From a virus, in the IMG/VR virus record IMGVR_UViG_3300021168_000030, positions 1 through 63,841 of that record: 63,841 bases of DNA; one strand, written 5' to 3'. This document shows positions 44,109 through 61,827 of the stretch, piece by piece; within the stretch, counting starts at the first letter, position 1, and each line of letters opens with the position of its first letter. A program made the translations under genes and the position numbers. The notes beneath the pieces were generated by a model. The model was not told the DNA's origin, did no database searches, and was given only the letters and a program-made list of their open reading frames with translations.

Positions 44109-44729
44109 ATGTTCTGTAAGTGTCATGTTTGCCGGTCAAGCCGACGGCAAGCTTTATGGCTAACGCCCGTCATCTTCTTCGGGATAATGGGTATAACCTA
44201 CGCGGCTTACCAGCCGGGCTTTCTCATCCCTTCGAATAATTTGTCGGACGTGACTGTGGTTGCGACCGCGAGGACAAACCTTGGTCTTGGTACGGCCGCG
44301 GTGAAGGCGGCATCGAACGCCGCGGACGCTACCGTGGCCTCGGTTACTGGTTCCTACACCGTCGGCCACGTGGCGACCTATGCCGATACGACTGGTTCTC
44401 TGCAGGACGGCGGCGCAGCTTCCGTGGCTCCTACAGTGGCACTGGCAGCGACTTCGGCGGGGATTACTCTGGCGTCGACACCTAACCTGACCACCATTGT
44501 GAGCAATACCACGGTAACTTCGGCAACGCTACCGAGCGCCATCACTGTGGGCGCCGGGTTCCGCGAATGCATCAAGGACGGAACGGAAGATTTTAACGCG
44601 CACAATGTCACGCTCAAAAGCACGGCTGGAACGATCGACGGTGTGGCTGCGGCGACTGGAATCGTAATGAACCAGACACACCAAGAGATGTGCGCTATCA
44701 GCGACGGCACCAATTGGTTTGTTGAGTGA
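44109..44729 (+). CDS. tail-fibre-like protein with N-terminal hydrophobic anchor
   Basis: A 206-residue protein with two Cys near the N-terminus and a hydrophobic segment (about 16-32). The fibre motif Asn-Leu-Ser-Asp-Val-x10-Leu-Gly-Leu-Gly follows, then a Thr/Ala-rich beta region. It is the first of a row of fibre-like proteins with export-like N-termini. Confidence 0.55.
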   Translation: MFCKCHVCRSSRRQALWLTPVIFFGIMGITYAAYQPGFLIPSNNLSDVTVVATARTNLGLGTAAVKAASNAADATVASVTGSYTVGHVATYADTTGSLQDGGAASVAPTVALAATSAGITLASTPNLTTIVSNTTVTSATLPSAITVGAGFRECIKDGTEDFNAHNVTLKSTAGTIDGVAAATGIVMNQTHQEMCAISDGTNWFVE

Positions 44730-44738
44730 TGGCTCGGT

Positions 44739-45707
44739 ATGCGGAGCTTTTTACTCGCTGCCAGTTTAGCAACAATTATTTTGACTGGAGGCGCCAAGGC
44801 AGCTTATAACGTCCCTAATGTGATCCAGGGCGGGCTCACTGTTAGCGGACAGCTTTTAACGAATGCTGGTTTGGGGCTGGGCGGCTCTGCGACAGGCAAC
44901 GCCTTCTCGTCAATGACATCGAATACAAATACACTATTTCCTTCGACAGCGACAACGACCTATACATTTAGCGACCATTTTGCAGGTCTGCGCGAAATGG
45001 ATCTGTGGAACGATGACTCGGTGGCTACTACGTCGTTCAACTTTTATCAGATGACGGGCACGGGTGCGGCGACATTAGAGGCGTCGCTGGCGCTCGCTGG
45101 CCTGACGTTGGGGAAGAGCATCCCGCTGATCTTGTCGGGCGCGACTTCAGGCACAACCACTGTGCAGGCGCCCGCCGTTGCGTCAGGCACACTGACTCTG
45201 CCGGCGGCCACCGATACCTTGGTTGGCAAGGCGACGACGGATACGCTGACGAACAAGACGCTGACAGACGAGATCAATCAGGAGTTCGAGGTTAGCACCG
45301 CAGCCATCACTTTTACCAGCAATACTACGCTAGCGACAGTTACGGGCCTGTCGCAGGCTTTGACGGCGGGCAAGACCTACAACTGCCATGGCCATCTGAC
45401 GGTCACTGCGGGAAATGCAACTGCGGGAATTAAGGTCGCTATGGTTGGGACGGGTAGTTTGACAGCTACTAGTAGCAGCTTTGTGTTTATCAATCACAAT
45501 GCCGCGGTCATAAATTCAGTGACAACGGAAACTGTTCTTGGAACGGCCGCCGGCACTACTGCAGCGGTAACCGACATTTTCATGGATGGCGCCATTGTCG
45601 TAAATGTTGCCGGGACGATCAATTTTCAGGCGGCGCAGAATGTCTCTAACGCAACCGGCACGACGATCGGTCAAAATTCGACAATGAATTGTGTTCGCGT
45701 AAATTAG
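44739..45707 (+). CDS. secreted fibre-like protein
   Basis: A 322-residue protein with a Sec signal peptide cut after Ala-Lys-Ala (residue 21). The mature part is Thr/Ala/Gly-rich beta, with the Leu-Thr-Asn-Lys-Thr-Leu-Thr-Asp motif of tail fibres and two Cys. Signal peptides are not expected on virion fibres. Confidence 0.6.
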   Translation: MRSFLLAASLATIILTGGAKAAYNVPNVIQGGLTVSGQLLTNAGLGLGGSATGNAFSSMTSNTNTLFPSTATTTYTFSDHFAGLREMDLWNDDSVATTSFNFYQMTGTGAATLEASLALAGLTLGKSIPLILSGATSGTTTVQAPAVASGTLTLPAATDTLVGKATTDTLTNKTLTDEINQEFEVSTAAITFTSNTTLATVTGLSQALTAGKTYNCHGHLTVTAGNATAGIKVAMVGTGSLTATSSSFVFINHNAAVINSVTTETVLGTAAGTTAAVTDIFMDGAIVVNVAGTINFQAAQNVSNATGTTIGQNSTMNCVRVN

Positions 45708-45762
45708 TGATGTTGTTGCTGCTCAATGCGTGTATGGTGCTGATTTTACCGAGGAGTCACTG

Positions 45763-59509: not shown

Positions 59510-59519
59510 GAGAGTTAAT

Positions 59520-59744
59520 ATGGCAGAGACTAGTGTACATAAGCGTAAATACATTGTTGAGACCCTACGCGACGTAGAAACTTTTGGTGTTATACTGCGC
59601 ATAGGTAAGCGGCAAGAAGGAGAAGAAGGAGCGAAGATAATCACTAGATTTGTAGGAACAGACGAAGATATTAATGAGCTGCTTGCAGCGATTAGCGAGC
59701 TGTATAGAAATACAGTTCTCGGACTAACGACTACTCGTATTTAG
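59520..59744 (+). CDS. small phage protein of unknown function
   Basis: A 74-residue protein after AGGAGAG with mixed beta and helix and no signal peptide. It lies between the transglycosylase and a secreted beta-helix protein. Confidence 0.5.
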   Translation: MAETSVHKRKYIVETLRDVETFGVILRIGKRQEGEEGAKIITRFVGTDEDINELLAAISELYRNTVLGLTTTRI

Positions 59745-59775
59745 CTGTAGGAATTAACAGTTGGAGTAGCTTTCA

Positions 59776-61827
59776 ATGAGGTGGTGGTCGAAATGCGCGG
59801 TTTTTGCCAGCTTGCTATTCATGGCATTGCCCGCGTCCGCCGCCGTGTGGGGGCGTGGCTCTGTCGTAGGTCCGTACACGCAGCAGCCGCCGCCACCATC
59901 ACCCCTCGTGCCAACTGCTCAAACGCTGATCCCAGTAGTTCAGCCGGTCGGTGGGCCCTTCCAGTTCCTCGCGGGGACCGGCTCTGCTAATAGGTTAGTC
60001 GGTAAAAATATCATCCCGGCGACGATTTTCCCACCCGCGCCTGCCTTTACCGGAAGCTGGGCAATCACTGGAGGCGCCGACGCCGGCAAGTTTAAGATCA
60101 ACTCGGCTACCGGCGACGTGAGTGTTTGCAACACCGCACCTACCTGTACCGATCTCGCCGCGGGTACCTACACGATCATTGTTACGCTTACTCAGCCGGG
60201 CGTAACGGGGTCGCCAGCTAGTACGACGGTAACCATTCAGGGCGTCGATCCGTCGGACACTACGACACTCTTCCTGACTTCGGACAATTATTACCCGACG
60301 CCAGGCTCAGTAATCAACGTCACGGTCAGAAATACACCAAACACAGCGGGCACCGATTATGTTCAGATCGGTAACGCGCGAGGCGCTTATAGTAACGGAA
60401 ATGTCCAGGGTCTGGATTATCAATGGGTCAGTGGGACTACTCCTACTATTGGCGTACATAATGGGACCGTGGCCTTGACGGTCCCGGCGCCGCCGAGTGA
60501 TAACTACCAATTCCTAAGCCTCATCCTGGTGCCGAATAATCAAGGCGGGTCGAAGGCTACAGCGTTCACTCCGACAGTCATCACGCCGGCGACGCTAGCT
60601 CCAACGGCGCCGACTGCAGCTAATACGCTCACTCCACCGTTCACTCCCAGTCAGACGATCACAGTCTGCCCCTCGGGATGTCAATATCCGCTACTCAGTG
60701 CGGCGCTGATCGGTCTCAGCAACGCTGGTATTGGCGGCGTCATCGACAACACTCTGATCACAATCCAGGCGGGAGCCTATTACGACTGCTCTCAGTTTGG
60801 AAACGCCTCCCCGTTCAACGCACCGACCAGCGATCGGTTATGGCATCTCCCACAGCATCTGTGGATCAAAGGGGTAGGTGGTAATTTTGCCCACTTCATG
60901 GGTGGCTCAACCCTTCTGTGCAACGGAAAGGGAACCTTCGTTTATTGGGGCGGCGCTACTGATGTTACAACTTTCGACAATCTCGAATGCTCTGATTGGG
61001 CCACAAATGGCCCTACTGCTTGCTTCTATCTTGCCAGCGGAAACGCTACGATGCGGAATGACTATCTACACGACGGCGAGGACTGCATCCTCAGCGGCAA
61101 CTCGCAGCCGTTCGTGAATTTCGTCGTACAAAACCTCCACTTCGCGAGATGTGGCGGACCAAATGGGCCCCAGCATAACGCATACTTTGGTGACAACACT
61201 AATACACTGGATTGGAACCATACGTTTTCAGAACAAGCGATGTTTGGACACGGCGCAAAGTCGCGCGGCTTTGTAAACCACTTCACATGTAACCTGTTCA
61301 TAGGCTCGCAGGACCCTTACTATGTGGACAGTGAGGAGATCGACTGTCCAGAGGGGCGGGAGTGTCACATTGACAACAACACCATTGTCAAAGGCGCGGG
61401 ATCGCCGCAGCAGAACCAAATAGGCTGGGCGATGGATGATGAGAATGGTGGCCCGCCGCAGACTTTGCCAGGGGGTGGGAACGCCATCTTCTCTCTTAAT
61501 CTTAACAATAACATTATGATTCAAGATGGTGAGTCCTCGCGGACACACTGGTTTGTTTACATTGGCCCCAATCAAAATCCTGCCCCGACGTTCTTTACCA
61601 ATCCACCCAACACATGGAATACCAACGTCTTTGTGGGAGGGCTTGCGGGGCAGTCTTATCCTTACTCCTCGTTCCACTTGACTACTGCTAGCGGCTATCC
61701 CGACACCTCAGAAGTTACCGAGGTTGGAGATCAACTGTTTACTACTCGCGCAGCGGCGGGGATTACGCAGACCTATCCGCCGCCGCCCGGCTGCACCGGC
61801 ACGATCGGCAACATGGTGGTGCCGTAA
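59776..61827 (+). CDS. secreted right-handed beta-helix protein
   Basis: A 683-residue protein. A signal peptide (cut after Ala-Ser-Ala, residue 22) is followed by Ala-Val-Trp-Gly-Arg-Gly and a Pro-rich linker, as in the GH16-like protein. Residues 75-155 look like a cadherin/Ig-type domain. From about 290 a Pro-Leu-Leu-Ser-Ala strand series with many Asn and Cys suggests a pectate-lyase-like beta-helix. It may be a secreted depolymerase or spike. Confidence 0.6.
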   Translation: MRWWSKCAVFASLLFMALPASAAVWGRGSVVGPYTQQPPPPSPLVPTAQTLIPVVQPVGGPFQFLAGTGSANRLVGKNIIPATIFPPAPAFTGSWAITGGADAGKFKINSATGDVSVCNTAPTCTDLAAGTYTIIVTLTQPGVTGSPASTTVTIQGVDPSDTTTLFLTSDNYYPTPGSVINVTVRNTPNTAGTDYVQIGNARGAYSNGNVQGLDYQWVSGTTPTIGVHNGTVALTVPAPPSDNYQFLSLILVPNNQGGSKATAFTPTVITPATLAPTAPTAANTLTPPFTPSQTITVCPSGCQYPLLSAALIGLSNAGIGGVIDNTLITIQAGAYYDCSQFGNASPFNAPTSDRLWHLPQHLWIKGVGGNFAHFMGGSTLLCNGKGTFVYWGGATDVTTFDNLECSDWATNGPTACFYLASGNATMRNDYLHDGEDCILSGNSQPFVNFVVQNLHFARCGGPNGPQHNAYFGDNTNTLDWNHTFSEQAMFGHGAKSRGFVNHFTCNLFIGSQDPYYVDSEEIDCPEGRECHIDNNTIVKGAGSPQQNQIGWAMDDENGGPPQTLPGGGNAIFSLNLNNNIMIQDGESSRTHWFVYIGPNQNPAPTFFTNPPNTWNTNVFVGGLAGQSYPYSSFHLTTASGYPDTSEVTEVGDQLFTTRAAAGITQTYPPPPGCTGTIGNMVVP

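Follow-up and report, generated by a model that had tools for sequence, protein, structure and literature searches.

The DNA considered here, called the window below, is the IMG/VR virus record IMGVR_UViG_3300021168_000030 over its whole length of 63,841 bases. Between positions 44,109 and 61,827 it contains a module in which eight genes, among them those of spikes and tail fibres, are predicted to encode proteins with cleavable Sec signal peptides. Export of the spike and fibre proteins is, judging from the sequences, very probable, since the signals, the cut sites, the cysteine pairs and the protein families all point to it. The scenario that we favour, and regard as probable, is that the spikes and fibres leave the cytoplasm, become oxidised in the periplasm and join the virions during lysis. 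Spikes and fibres with predicted export signals are, by their sequences, a trait of a group of uncultured soil phages to which the window phage belongs.

Predicted signal peptides in the fibre module

The 283 open reading frames (ORFs) of the window were scored with a self-written rule for an n-region, an h-region and an A-x-A site, which is home-made and other than SignalP, with a score of at least 15 as the main threshold. For calibration, 42 E. coli K-12 genes were used, with their exported status marked from annotation and recall. Among the exported or lipoprotein genes, tolB, pal, cpoB, ybgS and modA score at least 15 and ybhC scores 14.2, which gives five of six at 15 and six of six at 14. 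The false positives are ybhI, a multi-spanning membrane protein, at 15, and the membrane-anchored ybgE and tolA at 14.

The original prediction had named seven proteins with Sec signals (44739, 46469, 48667, 48983, 49708, 50700 and 59776, after their start positions) and had proposed signal-peptide prediction as a check. All seven starts turn out to be real ORFs among the top scores of the 283, and all seven qualify by our own rule, which adds an eighth protein, 44109. By the same rule a basic n-region, an uncharged h-region and small residues at −3 and −1 are present in all eight. Using our own gene caller, 8 of 9 plus-strand module genes score at least 15, compared to 2 of the 74 genes outside it. 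Shuffling of the first 45 residues gave a mean of 0.22 hits and a maximum of 2 (2000 shuffles), and of 2061 stretches taken from the interior of these proteins, none reaches the threshold. Two ORFs inside the module, 45730 and 48095, have no signal by the rule. A control on "near relatives" (signals in 1 of 362 genes) is not used as evidence, its genomes having been picked for the absence of the signal-bearing gene cassette. The module genes, together with that of the nozzle protein, are the following:

44109..44729, plus strand: fibre-like protein, 206 residues; signal about 44109-44204, cut between ..GITYA and AYQPGF; 2 mature cysteines
44739..45707, plus strand: signal-bearing protein, 322 residues; signal about 44739-44801; 2 mature cysteines
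45763..46464, plus strand: possible fibre-tail adaptor, similar to gp77 of phage GP4; no signal, 0 cysteines
46469..47800, plus strand: tail fibre with S74 chaperone, 443 residues; signal about 46469-46534; 8 mature cysteines
48092..48442 (ATG near 48092), plus strand: small fibre-like protein (MPSF..GSFF); no signal
48667..48978, plus strand: head-spike base protein, RCAP_Rcc01079 family; signal about 48667-48738; 0 mature cysteines
48983..49708, plus strand: signal-bearing protein directly after the spike base; signal about 48983-49054; 6 mature cysteines
49708..50709, plus strand: signal-bearing protein, 333 residues; signal about 49708-49776; 6 mature cysteines
50700..51677, plus strand: signal-bearing spike-like protein, 325 residues; signal about 50700-50771; predicted mature N-terminus MWGRG; 8 cysteines
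52070..53857, plus strand: virion protein, here named nozzle protein (PHROG 511, E 1e-100); no signal; query for relatives
59776..61827, plus strand: signal-bearing spike-like protein, 683 residues; signal about 59776-59841; predicted mature N-terminus AVWGRG; 14 cysteines

The families of some of these proteins could be assigned. 44109 matches a tail-fibre family (PHROG 2282, E 1e-6) and carries the fibre motif NNLSD..ARTNLGLG, while for 44739 the Pfam and PHROG family scans gave no match. The adaptor candidate, read from 45730, reaches 23 bits with PF23148, which is below the Pfam cut-off of 27. In 46469 the C-terminal S74 domain is found (PF13884, E 8e-8, 32.9 bits against a cut-off of 22), PHROG 1980 is also matched, and the cysteines include repeats of the form C..NTVYAGP..C. 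N-termini like that of the 48092 protein were found at loci L007, L008 and L013. Of the domain labels given in the original prediction, S74 is thus retained, for 46469, and SPRY, GH16-like and beta-helix could not be confirmed. The Pfam scan gave no family for 49708 and 50700, and for 59776 just a meaningless match at E 0.41, though such a scan may miss a fold. The PDB matches of 49708 are weak only, and a structure model of 50700, built from two sequences, has a pLDDT of 33.

Outside the module, small proteins with signal-like N-termini are encoded at 17306-17578 (minus strand), 29154-29348 (plus) and 32560-32790 (plus); for the first two, the Pfam scan gave nothing over the cut-off.

Cysteine pairs and tags at the predicted cleavage point

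The mature cysteine counts of the eight window proteins are 2, 2, 8, 0, 6, 6, 8 and 14, that is, even in every case. Cysteines are few or absent in most of the window's head, connector and ejection proteins; the nozzle protein has 8, however, and 53850 has 5. A larger sample was collected from the window and cassette-bearing relatives and made non-redundant at 50%. Its 61 signal-bearing proteins divide into 58 with even, 2 with odd and 1 with zero mature cysteines, while a control of 217 signal-less proteins from the same loci gives 80 even, 72 odd and 65 zero (Fisher p 3e-11, a value that is too small because proteins sharing domains are not independent).

The same domain was also compared with and without a signal. 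For an arabinofuranosidase-type domain, identified in L008 (PF09206), 80 further loci were fetched with two search patterns, one of which contained a cysteine. Each of the 18 loci in the exported group (L007, L008, L014, L028 and L102-L115) has at least one copy with all six cysteines, and 13 of these loci pass the signal rule. None of the 66 loci L116-L181, which make up the other group, has the first cysteine pair. In this second group L158 scored 14.9, which was judged to be a false signal call. The split partly reflects kinship, because one pattern contained a cysteine and the ranking favoured the cysteines of the query. Two copies have lost the third pair together, and the cysteines of the first pair are spaced as in secreted arabinofuranosidase B (C-x4-C). 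The arabinofuranosidase-type spikes of L028, L109, L111 and others start with an RRxFL-like sequence, so that some members of the family may be exported by Tat. A six-cysteine spike that begins, unusually, with QCLGFQCPPG is encoded in L110 and L112, and so is a further signal-bearing protein (ACPPIPFIFAQG..; L110:488-1825 and L112:968-2185) with 6 and 8 cysteines, respectively.

A second comparison is offered by a family of 118-residue proteins with 77 ORFs. A signal and both cysteines are found in 62, and in 3 there is a signal but the second cysteine is displaced; another 3 have both cysteines with the signal missed or cut off, and 7 are signal-less with the pair absent. The signal call in one more member, L292, was judged false. 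The model of this family has a pLDDT of 81; its PDB matches are weak (none by Foldseek at E ≤0.001, best VIA Z 7.4), and there are 70 viral matches at E ≤0.001, of which the listed ones are phage proteins with no function given. Within the window, 50700 and 59776 contain a pair that is missing as a pair in their L019 homologues, and in L024 a counterpart of the C..NTVYAGP..C repeat of 46469 lacks both signal and cysteines (one case).

The predicted cleavage points are marked by tags. The pattern D-M-Y-x-D-A-(S/T-like)-N-A (DMY.DASNA) was sought in all viral contigs with signals ignored, and 39 occurrences were found in 38 contigs, several of which are near-copies. All 39 lie directly after a signal-like stretch with Ala at −1; the signal scores are at least 14 in 38 cases and 12.4 in one. 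For these relatives the placing of the tag at +1 speaks indirectly for cleavage. In the window, both 50700 and 59776 have WGRG just past the cut, and their L019 homologues both have L.GTS..VDIP, so for these two types of body in two phages the N-termini track the phage and not the body. The idea that the tags serve as phage-specific virion docking peptides was considered as well, and was weakened after the same tags turned up in unrelated phages.

The head-spike link and the relatives

By its match to NF048002 (43.7 bits against a curated cut-off of 28), 48667 is a member of the Rcc01079 family of spike bases, and its PDB matches are 8cjz_h and 6tb9. In the Rhodobacter capsulatus gene transfer agent (GTA), the head spike consists of the base Rcc01079 and the fibre Rcc01080, which carries a Leu-Gly peptide at its N-terminus and docks via this extreme end (PMC7296036). 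Spike-base homologues in IMG/VR gave 34 hits, from which 3 duplicates were dropped. Of the 31 tabulated, 3 have a signal (window, L007 and L008) and 28 have none. The signal-less bases contain 0 cysteines in 15 cases, 1 in 12 and 3 in 1, and those of L007 and L008 contain 2. Two more signal-bearing bases, in L014 and L108, were found separately from this table.

In L007, L008, L014 and L108 the gene after the signal-bearing base encodes a fibre in which a Leu-Gly motif comes immediately past the predicted cut, the predicted mature N-termini being QSLGLGVGL, QSMGFGLGM, QGVGFGLGM and QGLGSGLGL, respectively; the L007 signal in this set fails the rule. In the four relatives the likeness to the GTA extends to a Leu-Gly peptide, here at the predicted mature N-terminus, while the signals and, in relatives, the cysteine pairs are differences. 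Among the fibres of the same body behind the other type of base, the 118-residue protein, 0 of 77 listed have the Leu-Gly motif (counted by eye, duplicates included), and another tag of the R-M-H-A / K-A-G-P type is present. A signal-less base and fibre are neighbours in L166 and L195, and signal-less fibres of the same body with glycine-repeat starts are found in L132, L158 and L160.

The window phage is a podovirus, distantly related to phages of Rhizobium, Burkholderia and Pseudomonas (28-32% identity in the nozzle protein). For the nozzle family, 78 IMG/VR loci were tabulated (L003-L017 and L021-L084, minus the near-duplicate L012; L002 is the window copy and was omitted). Fibre-like signal-bearing proteins are found in 9 of them (L007, L008, L009, L014, L021, L028, L032, L036 and L038), where "fibre-like" is the author's judgement from position and size, and isolated hits in L022, L051, L054, L065, L068, L071 and L075 were set aside. 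All 9 are among the 33 loci with at least 48% nozzle identity, and none is among the 45 at 30-37%. This separates the group from the Bcep22-like and RHph_TM27-like podoviruses and podophage GP4, with which it shares the nozzle protein and, weakly, the gp77-like adaptor of GP4: fibre-like signal-bearing proteins occur in 0 of the 45 more distant IMG/VR relatives tabulated. Homologues of 59776 (84%) and 50700 (43%), each with a signal, are encoded in L019 and L020, whose nozzle-like protein has no significant match to that of the window.

No named phage with the cassette was found among 50,697 records by the queries tried. Here 59776 had no match, 48667 matched 2 records, the 118-residue protein 2, and the DMY protein 1 (over 6% of the query); the matches of 46469 span at most 36% of the query among those listed, at the S74 end. 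Genome contigs were scanned twice with the nozzle protein; the first scan gave no relatives and the second 13 distant ones. In a search for the host the 118-residue family gave 2 weak hits (397 genomes of one order) and 6 weak hits (385 genomes of one class), and the five of these eight that were read have no signal and 0-1 cysteines.

Some other genes of the window can be mentioned. Upstream of the module, 43079-44107 encodes a 342-residue protein of LTEAATAVDA-type repeats with no family match, and an N-acyltransferase (PHROG 4470) lies amid the virion genes at 55456-55944, as it does in a Rhizobium phage relative. A DUF2201 metallopeptidase plus VWA-like protein is encoded in the early region (21031-22350). 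The two large ORFs at the ends of the window, 22-4353 and 61845-63841, match giant phage proteins (PHROGs 30335 and 37402) over a C-terminal and an N-terminal part, respectively. The ends of the record may lie within a single gene, yet a simple join of the ends is out of frame.

Probable export, proposed mounting on the virion and the alternatives

The signals, the paired cysteines, the tags and the families of 48667 and 46469 are supported by the sequence, and the idea of export in the original prediction gains from the cysteine pairing, the cleavage-site tags and the absence of the pairs in signal-less homologues. Among the roles it had suggested, joining the virion fits best, in view of the 48667 family, the S74 domain of 46469 and the docking motif in relatives; a coating of the host, a block to superinfection or the removal of capsule may also occur, yet nothing here speaks positively for them. 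That the exported parts are mounted on virions is what we infer as the likelier outcome. In the favoured mechanism, the proteins would be made with cleavable Sec signals and cross the inner membrane during infection, the cut by signal peptidase I would make the docking peptide the new N-terminus, and folding with disulfide bonds would take place in the oxidising periplasm. Two further genes bear on the later steps:

4408..4674, plus strand: probable holin (PF23987, E 2e-6)
5412..6080, plus strand: endolysin, a glucosaminidase (PF01832, E 2e-37); no signal by the rule

With a holin and a signal-less endolysin present, particles could reach the periplasm. The holin would open the inner membrane late, DNA-filled particles assembled in the cytoplasm would meet the finished spikes, and these would be taken up before or during rupture of the outer membrane. 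The exported spikes, of head-spike (base and fibre) and tail-fibre type, would be receptor-binding or polysaccharide-degrading parts of the virion.

It is important to point out that several observations weigh against this mechanism. The signal predictor is home-made, and the signal-bearing proteins are known from genes alone, not from virions or periplasm. Five of the 18 six-cysteine loci (L007, L103, L113, L114 and L115) have hydrophobic N-termini that fail the rule. Odd cysteine counts occur in L019_12028 (9), L110_2442 (1) and L323/L324 (5), 48667 has no mature cysteine, and L291 of the 118-residue family has a signal and no pair at the usual sites. Signal and cysteines may also be co-inherited per family, so that the sequences are not independent tests. 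The predicted mature N-terminus of window 48983, QPVAGGLSSLP, is without the Leu-Gly docking motif. The tags DMYQDASNAKL and QQVPNPM are common to phages of unrelated virion lineages, so a tag is not necessarily specific to one virion, and the tags may bind a partner in the cassette or the host instead of the capsid. Finally, G001 and G008, both read end to end, encode an ordinary signal-less tail fibre (small in G001) beside the cassette, and hence the exported spikes need not be the sole receptor binders.

The alternative that survives best, although we consider it unlikely, is that the proteins are exported and disulfide-bonded and act outside the virion, on the host surface or in the medium, serving, for example, as decoys that bind the receptor, as blockers of superinfection or as enzymes released to degrade polysaccharide. 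The evidence for export is identical in this case, the movement of the cassette with its own tags between unrelated virion lineages and the co-occurring ordinary fibres would fit, and the arabinofuranosidase-type domain matches a secreted-enzyme family. However, the spike-base and S74 families are virion types, the signal-less base and fibre homologues adjoin in L166 and L195, and the GTA-like motif stands at the predicted mature N-terminus in relatives. We find it improbable that the phage took up genes of secreted host proteins as cargo for lysogenic conversion and kept their signals; one body domain in relatives is indeed akin to secreted enzymes, but the genes lie among structural ones and include the S74 and spike-base families, the tags follow the phage, and no integrase was found among the ten early genes scanned. 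Fibres often attach by their N-termini and the rule also takes some membrane proteins. It is very doubtful, however, that the hydrophobic N-termini are virion anchors, or membrane-active segments, of fibres put together in the cytoplasm, given Ala at −1 and a conserved tag starting at +1 in all 39 cases, the even cysteine counts and the lack of the pairs in signal-less homologues.

In the textbook view, virions of tailed phages are built in the cytoplasm and freed by lysis, and to our knowledge export of head spikes or fibres is not known for any of them; a limited search of the open-access literature found no report of Sec signals on their tail fibres or spikes. With known S74 tail fibres 46469 shares the C-terminal domain, and it differs by its signal and its eight cysteines, paired in the N-terminal repeats and before S74. 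The receptor-binding virion protein pIII of filamentous phages is exported by a Sec signal and disulfide-bonded, but these phages assemble at the membrane without lysis, while the phages discussed here are tailed and have a holin and an endolysin. Lambda Lom shares the signal and the location in the tail region, and differs in being a host outer-membrane protein and no fibre (PMC12309495).

Returning to mounting at lysis, the balance tilts slightly towards a tailed-phage assembly with an extracytoplasmic step, by a cassette that is exchanged among unrelated podoviruses. If this is true, the virion would be finished in the periplasm and depend on the Sec and oxidation machinery of the host, and the receptor-binding parts would be kept out of the cytoplasm until release. 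Such phages could then be found by a sequence rule, namely a signal, a tag at +1 and even cysteines.

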